DNA from: Halorubrum yunnanense | GTDB lineage: Archaea; Halobacteriota; Halobacteria; Halobacteriales; Haloferacaceae | Assembly (NCBI RefSeq): GCF_026586675.1 | Contig: NZ_JAODIX010000068.1 | Span: forward strand, 10,981-68,028 | Direction: 5' to 3' | Length of the DNA: 57,048 bases | Position numbers and translations under genes: made by a program | Shown here: piece after piece, positions 32,327-38,010 of the stretch | Layout: each line of letters starts with the position of its first letter | How positions within the stretch are numbered: position 1 is the stretch's first letter | Notes under the pieces: generated by a model | The model's input: the letters and a program-made list of their open reading frames with translations, nothing else | The model's database searches: none | Told to the model about the DNA's origin: nothing

Positions 32327-33151
32327 CTACGCGTCGGCGTCGTCGGCGTGCGCTTCGTCACCCTCGTCGCGTTCCTCGGCGACATCGACGCGCTCCGCGA
32401 ACCCGAACCGCGGCTTGGCCTCGTCGATCTCGACGGTCACGGTCTCGCCGACCGCGGCGTCCGAGACGAAGACCGAGTACCCCTCGACGTACGCGATCCC
32501 GTCGCCCTCGTCGCCGAGCTCTTCGACGGTCACCTCCAGTCGGTCGCCCGCCTCGACGGGCGCCGTGTTCAGTCCCTTCGCGACGAGGTACACCTCCGAG
32601 GAGGAGTCGCGGGAGGCGGGCGGCGAGACGGTCCGGAGGTACTGGAACTCCCCGCGGACGTCCTCGCGGAAGGCGTCGAGGTCCTCGCCCTGGAAGGCCT
32701 TCGCGACGAAGTCGCCGCCGGGCGCGAGCAGCTCCTCGGCCACGTCGAACGCCTGCCTGGCGAGGTGAATCGACCGGGCGTGGTCGAGGGAGTACTCGCC
32801 GGTCATGTTCGGCGCCATGTCGGAGACGACGACGTCGGCCCCGCGCTCGCCGACCGCCTCGCGCAGGTAGTGACGCGTGCGCTCGTCGGTCATGTCGCCG
32901 CGGATCGTCTCGGCGTCGTGCTCCTCGAGGTCGTCGATGCGCTGGAGGTCGACGCCGACGACCGTCCCTGACTCGCCGACCTCTTCGGCGGCGACCTGTA
33001 GCCACCCGCCGGGCGCGGCGCCGAGGTCGACGACGGTGTCGCCGCGCTCGAACAGGTCCGACTCCTCGTCGATCTGTTTCAGCTTGTAGGCCGACCGGGC
33101 GCGGTACCCCTGCTGTTTCGACTTGTTGTAGTATTTGTCCTTTCCTGCCAT
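32327..33151 (-). CDS. rlmE: 23S rRNA 2'-O-ribose methyltransferase RlmE (FtsJ) with TRAM domain
   Basis: A 274-residue FtsJ-type enzyme that methylates the ribose of a uridine in the 23S rRNA A loop. The SAM site is [15 protein letters not shown] near residue 40. The K-D-K-E tetrad is visible as K in SAYKLKQ, D in [12 protein letters not shown] in DFVAKAFQ and E in [19 protein letters not shown]-binding domain follows (about 200-255; [20 protein letters not shown]). An 84%-identical copy of the first 88 bp recurs at 36309-36396 in a chimeric gene. Confidence 0.93.
33064..33151 (-). repeat. Direct repeat A (5' end of rlmE)
   Basis: The first 29 codons of rlmE. By eye about 74 of 88 positions match the segment at 36309-36396, ungapped and in the same orientation. 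The two copies bracket the roughly 3.2-kb island with tauE, the PolB remnant and the kinase chimera. Confidence 0.85.
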
Positions 33152-33237
33152 TGGTTGCGGGCCGTAGACGATACAGGCCTAAACCCGTGTCGTTGTCCCG
33201 ATTCGTCCGCCAAACATCCAGAGATTGTTACCGGTAC

Positions 33238-33408
33238 ATGAGACAGAAGATAATGAAGCAAACAACCGTATTAGACACTGAAATACCCGAAAGCGTCCGA
33301 CACGGGCGGCTATCGAACCTCCGAGATTCCCCGCTCGTTTACCGATTAGAAAGCGTGCAAGCCCATGAGGGACATATCCGGTGTATCTCCGACTCCCACC
33401 TCCTATGA
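33238..33408 (+). CDS. Possible small protein before the TauE-like gene
   Basis: A 56-codon frame (opening MRQKIMKQTTVLDTEIPESV) that ends by overlapping the next gene's ATG as ATGA, the usual sign of coupled genes. The region is more AT-rich than its surroundings and contains no recognised motif; the composition is not acidic. It may be a remnant carried with the island. No clear promoter is seen. Confidence 0.25.
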   Translation: MRQKIMKQTTVLDTEIPESVRHGRLSNLRDSPLVYRLESVQAHEGHIRCISDSHLL

Positions 33409-34328
33409 GTTCACAGGAATCGCACGTCGACGCTGAACAGTTCCTCACCAATCTTGTCAATTTCCGCTACCGGGAGGTGATGATGGCACTCGCGACACTC
33501 ATCGTCGTCGCCGGGTCGGTCGTCTTCTTTCCGGGGACGGACAACCTCACCGCGGGACTTCAGTCGGACGTGTCGGGTGGGTTGCTCGCCCTGTTCGTTC
33601 TCGTCGCAATCGCGGCCGGTGCGGTCAAGGGGATGATCGGCTTTGGCTACGCGCTCATCACGACGCCCATCTTCGCGTCGGTCATCGACCCGACGCTCGC
33701 GGTGGTCGTGCTCGCGATTCCCCCGTGGATGCTCAACGTCTTCCAAATCGGCGAGACGGACACTGGCATCGCGTTCATCCGGGAGGAGTGGGTGTTGCTC
33801 GGACTGGCTGTCGTCGGCTCTGTTATCGGCGTCACGTTCCTCTCGCAGTTCCGGACCGGCCCCATCGTCCCCTTCCTCATCGGGCTGGTCATCCTGGGCT
33901 ACGTCGTCTTTCAGGTCCTCCAGAACTTCGTCACGGTCGAGGAAGCCCACCACCCCGTCGCGCTCAGCGTCGCTGGCTTCCTGGAGGGATTCTTGCTCGC
34001 GGTGGCCAACCTCGGCCCGGTTCTCCCCACGTACTTCCACACGTTCGAACGTGACGTCGAGCGGTATATCGGCGGACTCTCGATGGTTCTCCTGACGATA
34101 TTCACCGTCCGCATCCTCCAGATGGCCTTCTTTACCGACCTCATGACGACATACCGGCTCTGGCTCGGTTCGGTCATCGCCGTCGTCACCATCGTCGGCC
34201 TGCTCATCGGCACCTACCTGCGACGGCTCGAAATCGACGAGGAGAAGTTCAACTGGCTCGTGGTCGGACTCCTCTTTCTCATCACGCTCAACATCTTCCG
34301 GAACACGATTCCGGCGCTGTTTTTCTGA
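33405..34328 (+). CDS. TauE/SafE-family membrane transporter (sulfite exporter type)
   Basis: A 307-residue membrane protein with about eight helices. Both TauE half-repeat signatures are visible: AIAAGAVKGMIGFGYALITT near residue 72 and LSVAGFLEGFLLAVANLGPV near 190. The family moves sulfite, sulfoacetate or related anions outwards. It is intact and is the only gene of the island that looks whole. Base composition is slightly less GC-rich than in flanking genes, consistent with transfer. The ATG at 33405 is preferred over one eight codons earlier. Confidence 0.85.
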   Translation: MSSQESHVDAEQFLTNLVNFRYREVMMALATLIVVAGSVVFFPGTDNLTAGLQSDVSGGLLALFVLVAIAAGAVKGMIGFGYALITTPIFASVIDPTLAVVVLAIPPWMLNVFQIGETDTGIAFIREEWVLLGLAVVGSVIGVTFLSQFRTGPIVPFLIGLVILGYVVFQVLQNFVTVEEAHHPVALSVAGFLEGFLLAVANLGPVLPTYFHTFERDVERYIGGLSMVLLTIFTVRILQMAFFTDLMTTYRLWLGSVIAVVTIVGLLIGTYLRRLEIDEEKFNWLVVGLLFLITLNIFRNTIPALFF

Positions 34329-34380
34329 TTACTGTCGTTCCCCACGGTAGACATTTGCTACCGCGGCACATACAGCCGGC

Positions 34381-35682
34381 ATGGCCTACTGCGAGCACTG
34401 CGGCTTTCGCATCGAGCGGGGGGTAGAAACCTGCCAACAGTGTGGCCACCTCGACTTCTCGTACGTCAGCGACGACGCCAAACCGATCGACCCCGAAGAC
34501 ATCAGGTGGGCCGACACCGAGCGGAACTTCGACTTCGAGACGACGAGCCGTGAACTGGCTGCCGGGCTCTCGGTGTTGCTTACCCAGCGCGGAGAGAAGC
34601 ACTCGTTGAAATACAGGGACGCAAAATCGTCGTACACGATTCGGACCTGTGACTACTACCGTTCCGGACGCGACCCGGTGCTAAACGACGTCGACCACGA
34701 CGGGTACGTCTACGACCTGAGTGTCGAAGAAAACGAGAACTTCGTCGACGGCGTCGGCGGTCTCGTCCTCCACAACACCGACTCGGTTATGTTAGAGGTT
34801 GGAGATGTCGGCCCCGAAGATGTCGAGGGCGGGGTCGAGATTACCGACGAGATGCGGGAGAAACACCCGGAAATGGATGAGGGGGAACTCGAAACCATCG
34901 CGGCGACAATCCAGAAGGGGTTCGAACTGGAAGACGTCATCAACAGTTCCTACGACGAGTTCGCCCTGGAGGAACTCAACGCGGCCGAACACCGCTTCCA
35001 GATCGAGTTCGAGAAACTCTACCGGCGCTTCTTCCAGGCGGGCAAGAAGAAACGCTACGCGGGACATATCGTCTGGAAGGAGGGCAAGGACGTCGACGAC
35101 ATCGACATCACGGGCTTCGAGTACCAGCGCTCTGACATCGCCGCCATCACGAAAGAGGTCCAGAAGGAGGTCATCGACATGATTGTGACCGGCGAGGACA
35201 CAGAGACGGTCAAGGAGTACCTCCACGAGGTCATCGAGGATTTCCGGGCGGGCAACGTCTCGCTGTCGGATGTGGGCATCCCCGGCGGCATCGGGAAGAA
35301 ACTGGACAACTACGACACCGACACCGCGCAGGTCCGGGGCGCGAAGTACGCCAACATGCTGCTGGGAACAAATTTCCAGAGCGGCTCGAAACCCAAGCGA
35401 CTGTATCTGAAGAAGGTCCACCCCGATTTCTTCCAGCGGGTGCAGGACGAGCAGGGGCTGGACCCCTCCGAGGACCCGCTGTATGGCGAGTTCAAGCGGG
35501 ACCCGGACGTCATCTGCTTCGAGTACGACGACCAGGTGCCCGAGGAGTTCGAGGTGGACTGGGACAAGATGCTCGACAAGACGCTGAAAGGCCCAATCGA
35601 GCGCATCATCGAGGCACTGGGCATCTCGTGGGAGGAGGTCAGGTCCGGGCAGGAACAGACCGGACTCGGGCAGTACATGTGA
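34381..35682 (+). pseudogene. Chimeric remnant: zinc ribbon + intein C-terminus + PolB C-terminal part
   Basis: An open 433-codon frame made of three parts. Residues 1-25 are a zinc ribbon (CEHCGFRIERGVETCQQC). Residues about 41-132 are the C-terminal end of an intein, with block F/G VYDLSVEENENFVDGVGGL and terminal LVLHN. From 133 it is family-B DNA polymerase from motif C (TDSVMLEVGDV) through the thumb (KKKRYAGHIVWKEGKDVDD) to the natural end LGQYM. The catalytic YGD, motifs A and B, exonuclease and most of the intein are absent, so neither polymerase nor splicing activity is possible. Foreign polB debris joined in frame to another gene's start is the best reading. Confidence 0.88.
34501..34776 (+). 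other. Intein C-terminal fragment (YGD|TDS insertion site)
   Basis: This part of the chimera carries the end of a LAGLIDADG-type endonuclease/splicing region (ELAAGLSVLLTQRGEKHSLK), then intein block F and block G ending His-Asn, directly followed by Thr-Asp-Ser of PolB motif C. That is the well-known polymerase insertion point. The left boundary is approximate. Confidence 0.85.
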
Positions 35683-35703
35683 CCGGACTGTCACCGCCAG
35701 CAG

Positions 35704-36396
35704 CTAGTCGGTCAGAATCTCGAAGCGCGCACCGCCGTCCTCGCCGTTCGTAATCTGCAATTCCCAGCCGTGGGCGTCGGTGACGTTCTCGACGATCTGG
35801 AGGCCGTACCGGCCTTTTTCGGTGTAGTAGTCGACGACGGACTGGCCGGCGGCGAGGGCATCCTCGGGAAAGCCGGGGCCGTCGTCTTCGACGTAGAATC
35901 CACCGTCGATGTCCCCGACGGTGACGGTTACGCCATCCTCGGCCTGTGACTGACTGTCCGTCGAACCGTGCTCCACGCTATTCCGAAAGAGGTTCTCGAA
36001 GCACTGTCTCAGGCGTCGTGGGTCGGCGTCGACGGTGGCTGTCGTCTCGACGTCGAGCGTTCCGGGCCCATCGCTGGTGGCGTCCCACACCTGCCGTGCC
36101 ATCGACTGTAGCTCCACGATCTCCGTCTCGTGGATGTCCCCGCCCGTGCGCGCAACCGTAAGAACCTGGTCGACGATTTCCTCCATCCGTTCTGTCGCCT
36201 CGGCTATCGACTGGAGCCGGTCTTCGTGTTCGGACTCTTCGATGAGTGCCAGATTCGCACTGATAATCTGGAGCGGGTTGCGCAGGTCGTGTGAGACGAG
36301 TCCGGCGGCCTCGTCTAACTGTTTGAGTTTGTAGGCCGACCGGGCGCGATACCCCTCCTGTTTGGCCTTGTTGTAGTATTCGTCTTTGCCGCTCAT
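35704..36396 (-). CDS. RlmE N-terminus fused to histidine kinase core
   Basis: A 230-residue in-frame chimera. Residues 1-29 are an RlmE start (SGKDEYYNKAKQEGYRARSA then YKLKQLDE). From residue 30 a complete kinase core follows: H box GLVSHDLRNPLQ, N box FENLFRNSVEH, G1 DDGPGFPED and G2 YGLQIVENVTDAHG. There is no sensor or membrane domain. Kinases of this type often read LDE-x-A-x-x-V-S-H-D-L-R-N before the H box, so the join at LDE fits recombination through a short shared sequence. It may be an expressed soluble kinase or a dead hybrid. The start is the rlmE-type ATG. Confidence 0.85.
   Translation of the reverse strand: MSGKDEYYNKAKQEGYRARSAYKLKQLDEAAGLVSHDLRNPLQIISANLALIEESEHEDRLQSIAEATERMEEIVDQVLTVARTGGDIHETEIVELQSMARQVWDATSDGPGTLDVETTATVDADPRRLRQCFENLFRNSVEHGSTDSQSQAEDGVTVTVGDIDGGFYVEDDGPGFPEDALAAGQSVVDYYTEKGRYGLQIVENVTDAHGWELQITNGEDGGARFEILTD
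36309..36396 (-). repeat. Direct repeat B (rlmE-like 5' end in the chimera)
   Basis: The second copy of the 88-bp rlmE start, about 84% identical to 33064-33151, in the same orientation. The differences are spread out, so this copy probably comes from another haloarchaeon and not from a recent local duplication. Confidence 0.85.
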
Positions 36397-36548
36397 CTGC
36401 CTCTCCTCCCGTCTCGTGACGCCTTGCGCGCGAAGACCGCTGGCGAAACTGCGTTCATAAGGTCGCATACGCCGCCGACGCGGAAAGGGACGTCGGATGT
36501 GCGCCCCCTCTCGCCCGCGGGCGACTCGGAAAGATTTACAAGTGTGCT

Positions 36549-36562
36549 TTTGTTCGTACAAA
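36549..36562 (+). promoter_or_regulatory. Candidate operator before cbtB
   Basis: An imperfect palindrome TTTGT-TCGT-ACAAA-like (5-bp arms) lies 11 nt before the cbtB ATG in an AT-rich stretch. A metal- or cobalamin-responsive repressor would be plausible from the neighbouring genes. This is inference from symmetry and position only. Confidence 0.3.
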
Positions 36563-36573
36563 TTAGATTGTCA

Positions 36574-36756
36574 ATGGCTGCGAACACGGTTCACGACCGG
36601 CTGTGACTCGCGCGAACGGAACTCACGCTCACGCAGGTGCTGTCCGTCCTCCTCGCGGTGGCGGCGCTCGGCTTCGCGCTCGCGCTGCTCCAGGAGCCGA
36701 CGGCACACGAGGCGATGCACGACTTCCGGCACGCGGCCGGCGTCGTCTGCCACTGA
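36574..36756 (+). pseudogene. cbtB: CbtB cobalt transporter subunit with in-frame stop
   Basis: The frame encodes a CbtB-like small membrane protein: VHDRL at the start, then LARTELTLTQVLSVLLAVAA, GFALALLQEPTAHEAMHD and the His-rich end FRHAAGVVCH. Codon 11 (36604-36606) is TGA, which breaks the protein after ten residues. The rest of the frame is well conserved, so the loss is recent, or the base is a read error. CbtB works with CbtA in Co2+ uptake for cobalamin. It ends one base before the cbtA start. Confidence 0.8.
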
Positions 36757-36757
36757 G

Positions 36758-37240
36758 ATGATCGCCGCCTACGTGGCGAACGGCGTCAAGTCCGGGCTCG
36801 TCGCGGGGCTCGCCTTCGGGCTGCTCGTGGCGCTCGTGGCGAACCCGCTCGTGGCGTTCGCCGAGGGGAGCGCGCACGTCGAAGGCGCGGGCGGCCACGA
36901 CCACGCGGGCGACTCTCACGGGGAGGGCGGGCTCTCGGCTTCCGTCGCCGACGGCGCGAGCGTGCTCTCCGGCGTCCTCTGGGGCGTCTTCCTCGGCGTC
37001 GTCGCGTTCGGGGTCGCCTTCTACCTCCTCGAGCCGATCGTCCCGGGATCCGGCGCGGTCCGGAGCTACGCGTTCGGCGCCGCAGGCCTGCTGACGGCCT
37101 CCGTCGCGCCGTGGCTCGCGTTCCCGCCCGGACCGCCCGGGAACGTCGGCCGTCGCGGCGGCAGCGGCCTCGCGGCCGGGCTGACGAACGAGCTGGTCCA
37201 CGTCGCCAGCGACGCCCGCGACGGCGGGGTCGAGCTGTGA
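36758..37240 (+). pseudogene. CbtA N-terminal part fused in frame to the end of CbiC
   Basis: The first about 133 codons are CbtA, a cobalt transporter with several helices and a His-rich loop (GAGGHDHAGDSHGEGG), and reach PWLAFPPGPPG. The remaining about 27 codons (NVGRRGGSGLAAGLTNELVH and on) match the conserved end of precorrin-8X methylmutase CbiC, whose relatives end G-R-[KR]-G-G-S-x-x-A-A. A deletion has joined the two genes, removing the end of cbtA, most of cbiC and whatever lay between. Neither function should survive. The stop overlaps the GTG of cbiE. Confidence 0.78.
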
Positions 37241-38010
37241 CGGGCGAGGAGGCGGCCCCCCCGGACCTCCCCGATCGCCCGGCCGAGGCGGCGAGCGCGG
37301 CGCCGGAGCCGTCCCGGGCCGACGACGAGGACCGCCGGCCCGTCCACGCCGTCGGCATCGGTCCGGGGAACGCCGAGCTGCTGACGCGGCGCGCGGGTCG
37401 GCTGCTCGGCGAGGCCGACGTCGTCGTCGGCTTCGAGACGGTGGTCGACTTCGTCGCCGGGGAGACCGACGCGGAGCTTATCACCTGTGGCTACCGCGAC
37501 GAGCCGGAGGCGCTCGGGCGGTTCGCCGCTCGCGCCGCCGACGGCGCGCGCGCGGTCGCCGTGCTGATGGGCGACCCGAACCACTCCGGCTACCAGTTCC
37601 TCGGCAAGGTCGAGGCCGCCGTCGACGCGCCGGTCGCGGTCGTCCCCGGGATCTCCTCGGTGCAGGTCGCCGCGAGCCGTGCGCGCACGCCGCTGGAGGC
37701 GTCGGTCTTCGAGACGCTCCACGTCAGGGGCGACGTCTCGCCCGCGCTCGCCCGCCTCGGCCGAGCCGTCGGCGACCGACACCTGATCGCGATCCCGCGC
37801 CCGTACGACTGGATGCCCGAGGACATCGCGGCCGAGCTCGTTTCCGGGGGCGCGGACCGGGGCCTCGACGCGCTCGTCTGCGAGCGGCTGACCCATCCCG
37901 ACGAGGCGATCACGCGAACCGATCTGGGAGCGCTCGCCGACGGCGCCGGCGGCGACGAGCCGGCCGACAGCGCCTTCTCCGACCTCTCCGTGCTCGTCGT
38001 CCGCGCCTGA
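37237..38010 (+). CDS. cbiE: Cobalt-precorrin-7 C5-methyltransferase
   Basis: A 257-residue SAM-dependent tetrapyrrole methyltransferase of cobalamin synthesis. Marks are the N-terminal HAVGIGPGNAELLTRRA near residue 36 (usual P-loop-like GxGxG), GRLLGEADVVVGFETVVDF, VLMGDPNHSGYQFLGK near 110 and VVPGISSVQVAASRARTP near 138. It carries a 30-residue acidic/proline N-terminal extension that may be a start-site artefact. The GTG overlaps the preceding stop as GTGA. It is intact, but its upstream partners are damaged, so the pathway here is probably broken unless complete elsewhere. Confidence 0.88.
   Translation: MTGEEAAPPDLPDRPAEAASAAPEPSRADDEDRRPVHAVGIGPGNAELLTRRAGRLLGEADVVVGFETVVDFVAGETDAELITCGYRDEPEALGRFAARAADGARAVAVLMGDPNHSGYQFLGKVEAAVDAPVAVVPGISSVQVAASRARTPLEASVFETLHVRGDVSPALARLGRAVGDRHLIAIPRPYDWMPEDIAAELVSGGADRGLDALVCERLTHPDEAITRTDLGALADGAGGDEPADSAFSDLSVLVVRA

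Follow-up and report, generated by a model that had tools for sequence, protein, structure and literature searches.

Hybrid reading frames of the pseudogene type, in which two partial genes come to lie in one frame following the loss of the DNA between them, represent a recognized outcome of gene fusion by internal deletion. Among cobalamin loci, a described counterpart of the region analyzed here is the cobalamin (cobalt-early) cluster of Haloferax volcanii, which, in the portion of its description drawn upon here, extends from HVO_B0048 (cbiE) and B0049 (cbiC) to B0062 (cbiT) (PMC8305020). Loss of B12 synthesis with retention of salvage has in turn been described, in the part of the source that concerns this topic, as gene loss of the Black Queen type (PMC6719526).

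The window, i.e., the whole 57,048-nucleotide stretch of Halorubrum yunnanense DNA analyzed, was found by reading its open frames to contain an open reading frame of 160 amino acids at positions 36758-37240 of the forward strand, which is composed of residues 1-128 of CbtA and, after these, the 32 C-terminal residues of CbiC, with cbiE located downstream. An initial sequence-only reading had proposed that cbtA is fused in frame to the end of cbiC directly ahead of cbiE, its usual neighbour, and both proposals are borne out by the profile and alignment data. The cbtA 5' half (36758-37141, forward strand; codons 1-128 of approximately 267) is recognized by the N-terminal half of the Pfam CbtA profile PF09490, which matches residues 4-128 of the hybrid with 64 bits (cut-off 30.7; profile positions 3-133 of 239), and it exhibits 86% and 80% identity to the intact CbtA proteins of the Halorubrum genomes G014 and G026, respectively. 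Profile positions 134-239 are missing, and the hybrid contains two hydrophobic stretches compared to five in full-length CbtA. The tail of the hybrid, NVGRRGGSGLAAGLTNELVHVASDARDGGVEL, encoded by the last 32 codons plus stop of cbiC (37142-37240, forward strand), is identical to the CbiC end of G014 at 31 of 32 residues (96.9%, E 5.6e-14); being all that is left of CbiC, it returns no Pfam match to the CbiC domain PF02570 (precorrin-8X methylmutase) within the hybrid. CbtA therefore does break off early, as had been claimed, but the join falls after residue 128 rather than at approximately 133, with the CbiC end beginning at residue 129. The hybrid ends in a TGA (37238-37240) that shares bases with the GTG start, at 37237, of an intact cbiE gene of 257 codons (37237-38010, forward strand), and this stop/start overlap is also present in three of four syntenic relatives. 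Judging from the alignments, both halves of the hybrid correspond to named genes in an order conserved in four genomes, and chance resemblance is thus excluded.

The relatives in question emerged when the hybrid was searched against 52 Halorubrum genomes, 17 of which, including that of the organism itself, gave a match. In G014, G004, G018 and G026 the sequences matching the two parts of the hybrid, CbtA and CbiC tail, are located on one contig and one strand, approximately 16-17 kb apart, while most other genomes with both parts have a different arrangement, in which these lie approximately 7 kb apart on opposite strands. The gene order at the same place in the four genomes is rrmJ, cbtB, cbtA, cbiT-L-F-G-H-H, ferredoxin, cbiX, chlID, cobN, cbiC, cbiE, GNAT and gatB, and blastn comparison demonstrates that the window is collinear with it, sharing rrmJ, cbtB and cbtA on the left and cbiE, GNAT and gatB on the right. 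Comparison with complete Halorubrum loci, as proposed in the sequence-only reading, thus furnishes four intact operons at the same position. As far as the consulted portion of PMC8305020 goes, the block of these relatives has a gene set similar to that of the Hfx. volcanii cluster, and its layout is likewise similar, with cbiC adjoining cbiE, and cbiT, cbiF and cbiG at the other end; the place differs, being the rrmJ-gatB interval here and megaplasmid pHV3 in Hfx. volcanii. Unlike the Hfx. volcanii cluster, the window has cbtA codon 128 joined directly to the final 32 codons of cbiC, with all of the intervening DNA gone.

The break points agree closely between the relatives. Alignments with G014 and G004 end at window position 37140 and restart at 37141; the right part of the alignment with G026 restarts at 37142 and the left part of that with G018 extends to 37156, i.e., within approximately 16 bp of 37140/37141 in both of the latter. 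The DNA missing from the window amounts to 15,686 bp relative to G014, 15,761 bp relative to G004, and approximately 17 kb (up to 17.3 kb) relative to G018 and G026, and both of its edges are intragenic, one at codon 128 of cbtA and the other 32 codons short of the cbiC end. In G014, the missing block comprises the second half of cbtA, cbiT, cbiL, cbiF, cbiG, two cbiH genes, a ferredoxin gene, a gene for a CbiX protein, a ChlI/VWA chelatase subunit gene on the other strand, cobN and most of cbiC. The loss of the cbtA end, most of cbiC and the genes between, which had been suspected from the window, is upheld by this synteny and by the failure to find the block anywhere else in the genome (see below). 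Both torn ends are collinear with an intact locus in four relatives, as expected of a deletion scar, and the hybrid is very probably the scar of one deletion of approximately 16 kb in a chromosomal cobalamin (cobalt-early pathway) operon. This reading rests on the synteny with four relatives and on the absence of the block, both of which are directly shown. The kind of scar is already known and its mechanism is ordinary, and what is unusual is its clarity. No categorical difference separates this hybrid from other pseudogene hybrids formed by internal deletion, its join happening to be in frame, and a literature search did not return a description of this cbtA-cbiC hybrid.

According to the proposed course of events, an ancestor would have possessed the operon at the same place, as the four Halorubrum genomes do, and a single deletion would have cut from cbtA codon 128 to 32 codons before the cbiC end. 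The junction (GCCCGG joined to GAACGT, 37140-37141, delimited by the blastn break points and junction alignments) reads GCCCGGGAACGTC in the window, compared to GCCCGGCGTC in the left parent and GTGACGAACGTC in the right parent. No base is common to both parents at the join, so that no microhomology is visible relative to the present-day relatives, which suggests a repair of the break by end joining that did not rely on long homology; one or two bases of microhomology could have been hidden by later change. Microhomology-mediated end joining that produces deletions has been reported for Haloferax, according to the part of the source considered here (PMC7521656). The junction was also inspected for a mobile element or a repeat, and none was seen.

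The remainder of the genome was searched for the missing genes, as had been recommended on the basis of the window. The CbiC profile PF02570 returned no match in the organism's own genome at E <= 10, in a search whose control was positive in 10 of 14 known genomes, CbiG was absent from the genome, and the 15.7 kb block, used as a DNA query, yielded only 44 short scraps, none longer than 150 bp, the best of which is 72% identical over 150 bp. CbiE-like tetrapyrrole methyltransferases (E <= 1e-3) number one in this genome, namely cbiE itself, compared to three to six in the 16 genomes with the pathway. The profile and block searches rule out an intact cbiC copy elsewhere in the genome, and a natural CbtA family with this ending was rejected as the hybrid occurs in one of the 52 Halorubrum genomes with no second case; neither of the two observations that had been named in advance as fatal to a deletion was therefore made. 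The absence of the block also bears on the suspicion that distant contig ends were wrongly joined during assembly and that the living strain still possesses the missing genes. Such an artefact would be compatible with a draft genome in 116 contigs, yet the block is on no other contig at 99.36% completeness and 0.39% contamination, both sides of the join have their expected neighbours in the expected orientation, and a nonsense codon in cbtB (see below) provides independent evidence of decay, rendering an assembly error very improbable.

Among 86 CbiE-bearing genomes of the family, only that of the organism has a CbiC torn inside a contig beside cbiE; the CbiC of G033 is cut by its contig end, and that of G041 lies in two frames. 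In the latter genome (locus L157, contig C377), CbiC is split over two overlapping frames beside an intact CbiE, representing either a frameshift or a sequencing error.

Decay is also apparent upstream of the deletion. The cbtB relic (36574-36756, forward strand, delineated by alignment with the four relatives), encoding the small cobalt-transporter subunit, carries a TGA at codon 11 (36604-36606), at which two of the relatives have CGA and two GCG, and the remaining cbtB frame beyond this codon is still readable. The region preceding it (36497-36573, forward strand) is partly conserved in alignments with the four relatives, and we infer that it is the probable promoter of the relic operon. 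The numbers of amino-acid and silent changes in cbtA are 7 and 11 on the window branch versus 2 and 10 on the branches of two relatives (Fisher p 0.25), while those in cbtB are 5 and 2 versus 1 and 6 (Fisher p 0.10); pooled, the two genes give p = 0.052, from small counts and with pooling decided after the fact. These counts lean towards relaxed constraint, short of proof, and together the cbtB nonsense codon and the trend to amino-acid change would point to decay of cbtA and cbtB. The corresponding counts for cbiE (13 nonsynonymous and 12 synonymous changes versus 16 and 25, Fisher p 0.32) reveal no clear relaxation. This gene scores 339 bits against NF004457, cobalt-precorrin-7 C5-methyltransferase (cut-off 302), and 104 bits against TIGR02467, CbiE (cut-off 92.9), and thereby qualifies as an equivalog, in a genome from which its pathway partners CbiC and CbiG are both absent. 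Given an open hybrid frame and a cbiE gene without clear relaxation, the deletion could be recent, or parts of the locus could still be used.

The latter option, in its strong form, holds that selection acted either on the hybrid as a functional protein or on the in-frame join, so that translation would continue into cbiE via the TGA/GTG overlap. It would account for the open join, for an overlap kept as in three of the four relatives, and for an intact cbiE, a gene which other Halorubrum genomes keep without the pathway. A join is in frame by chance in one case out of three, however, and coupled translation along the entire message should suffer from the nonsense codon located upstream, in cbtB; the hybrid also lacks half of CbtA and the greater part of CbiC, with its Pfam domain, and is seen in a single genome of 52. 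Selection for the hybrid or for its frame is accordingly very unlikely. The deletion would instead have left a protein without cobalt-transport or methylmutase function, in frame by chance, and the function of the hybrid is most likely none, with cbiE remaining as an orphan that may decay slowly or be kept for another role.

The sequence-only reading had further noted two other in-frame hybrids nearby, and these are indeed present. They are located in an insertion of approximately 3.2 kb (33146-36308, delimited by overlapping blastn blocks in the relatives) with a low GC content of 0.58-0.63, which lies between rrmJ and cbtB and splits rrmJ from its own upstream region. The insertion is flanked by a repeat of approximately 80 bp of rrmJ 5' sequence, corresponding to the overlap of the blastn blocks, the two copies of which have diverged, and it contains a TauE-like gene in addition to the two hybrids. 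The first hybrid (34381-35682) has a zinc-ribbon start joined at approximately residue 42 to an intein end, which is followed by the tail of PolB, a family B DNA polymerase; contig 41 of this genome also carries a polymerase gene that includes this intein stretch, at 78-81% identity. The second (35704-36561, reverse strand) combines an RrmJ start (34 residues, sharing 74% identity with the intact copy) with a histidine kinase possessing HisKA and HATPase domains. The insertion with its two hybrids is an event separate from the deletion, approximately 0.8 kb from the junction, and neither frequent rejoining of DNA in the area nor, as had alternatively been suggested, selection in favour of open frames finds support given a chance of one in three per in-frame join and, for the latter, the signs of decay in cbtA and cbtB. 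If exactly three joins existed, the chance of all three being in frame is approximately 1 in 27, and with this prior, and with open frames being what readers notice, selection need not be assumed.

The proximity of this insertion does invite the thought that the fragment was not produced by deletion at this site but imported in finished form on foreign DNA, for instance along with the 3.2 kb insertion. Genomes with the operon at this place do not form one clade in the rrmJ tree, which requires three changes, two of them forced by well-supported branches, so the segment may move between species. Against this, the rrmJ 5' repeat, cbtB, the hybrid, cbiE, GNAT and gatB are arranged as in the relatives apart from the absence of the block, and even a transferred segment would have originated by deletion of the same operon; ready-made arrival is thus very improbable, and a deletion at this site is the preferred reading. 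As the operon carriers are not one clade, the segment was either lost repeatedly or moved by recombination, a choice on which the rrmJ tree, representing one gene, is not decisive.

The surroundings of rrmJ in other genomes provide no second example. Of 50 rrmJ regions fetched, 31 have rrmJ and GNAT 60 bp to 2.2 kb apart without the operon, four have the operon, and 15 exhibit neither state, in some cases because the contig ends. No operon relics were found between rrmJ and GNAT in the 31 genomes, where the matches are confined to the rrmJ upstream region, which is shared, and to short scraps rich in GC; a second scar was hence not encountered. The operon between rrmJ and the GNAT gene is located at loci L031, L035, L038 and L040 of the four Halorubrum genomes. 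In Hrr. lacusprofundi ATCC 49239, the operon is carried by a 431 kb replicon listed among plasmids. None of the 13 records obtained from a plasmid collection has one place covering 80% of the query.

With regard to the remaining B12 genes, contig 41 of the genome contains, at 58-78 kb, a cluster encoding CbiA-like, CobS, aminotransferase, CbiZ, CobA/BtuR and CbiP-like proteins. Two strong GATase_3 proteins are encoded approximately 6 kb apart, and GATase_3, a family which also contains other amidotransferases, is above cut-off in all 52 Halorubrum genomes, the matches of G041 all being weak. A B12-binding domain is likewise present in 52 of 52 genomes, including that of the organism. Since the late-assembly and salvage genes (CbiA/CbiP, CobS, CbiZ, CobA) and a B12-binding protein are kept, the organism is, by its gene content, probably a corrinoid salvager that no longer makes the corrin ring and that would use salvaged corrinoids via its intact late genes. 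This predicts a corrinoid dependency of the strain that is testable by feeding. The pattern resembles Black Queen type loss, to the extent covered by the consulted part of PMC6719526, in that the corrin-ring genes are gone and the late-assembly genes, salvage genes and B12-binding protein are kept; it differs from the clean absence described in that part by a single junction at which both torn ends are visible. The loss of a costly pathway, CbiC being absent from 36 of the 52 Halorubrum genomes, has thus been caught with both torn ends legible.

The less expected part of the finding is the distribution of cbiE. CbiC is encoded by 16 of the 52 Halorubrum genomes and CbiG by exactly the same 16, while CbiE (at least 279 bits) is present in 27, all with open sequences, which poses the sharper puzzle: 11 genomes, including that of the organism, possess CbiE without CbiC and CbiG. 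Nine of the ten other orphan cbiE genes adjoin the same 292-residue protein, which has no clear family, and these therefore represent one shared locus rather than ten independent scars. Among the ten, pN/pS ranges from 0.18 to 0.45 (45 pairs, median 0.36), compared to a median of 0.27 in 12 genomes with the pathway at another place (65 of 66 pairs, with pS between 0.05 and 0.6). Outside Halorubrum, CbiE (E <= 1e-30) occurs in 59 genomes of the family, in 51 of which CbiC is directly upstream, while eight have no CbiC in the adjacent position, as judged by neighbouring position only. The deletion took the whole corrin-ring block but left precisely cbiE in place, and an open cbiE without CbiC and CbiG is also present in ten further Halorubrum genomes; on these grounds one might speculate that Halorubrum CbiE performs an additional function outside the pathway and that the hybrid serves as a short carrier frame expressing cbiE from the old cbtB promoter, an idea that we consider rather unlikely. 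The orphan cbiE genes of the other Halorubrum genomes are located at loci L174-L183, and at six of these ten (L175, L176, L177, L180, L181 and L183) the contig ends approximately 0.5-2 kb upstream, which hints at a repeated element there.
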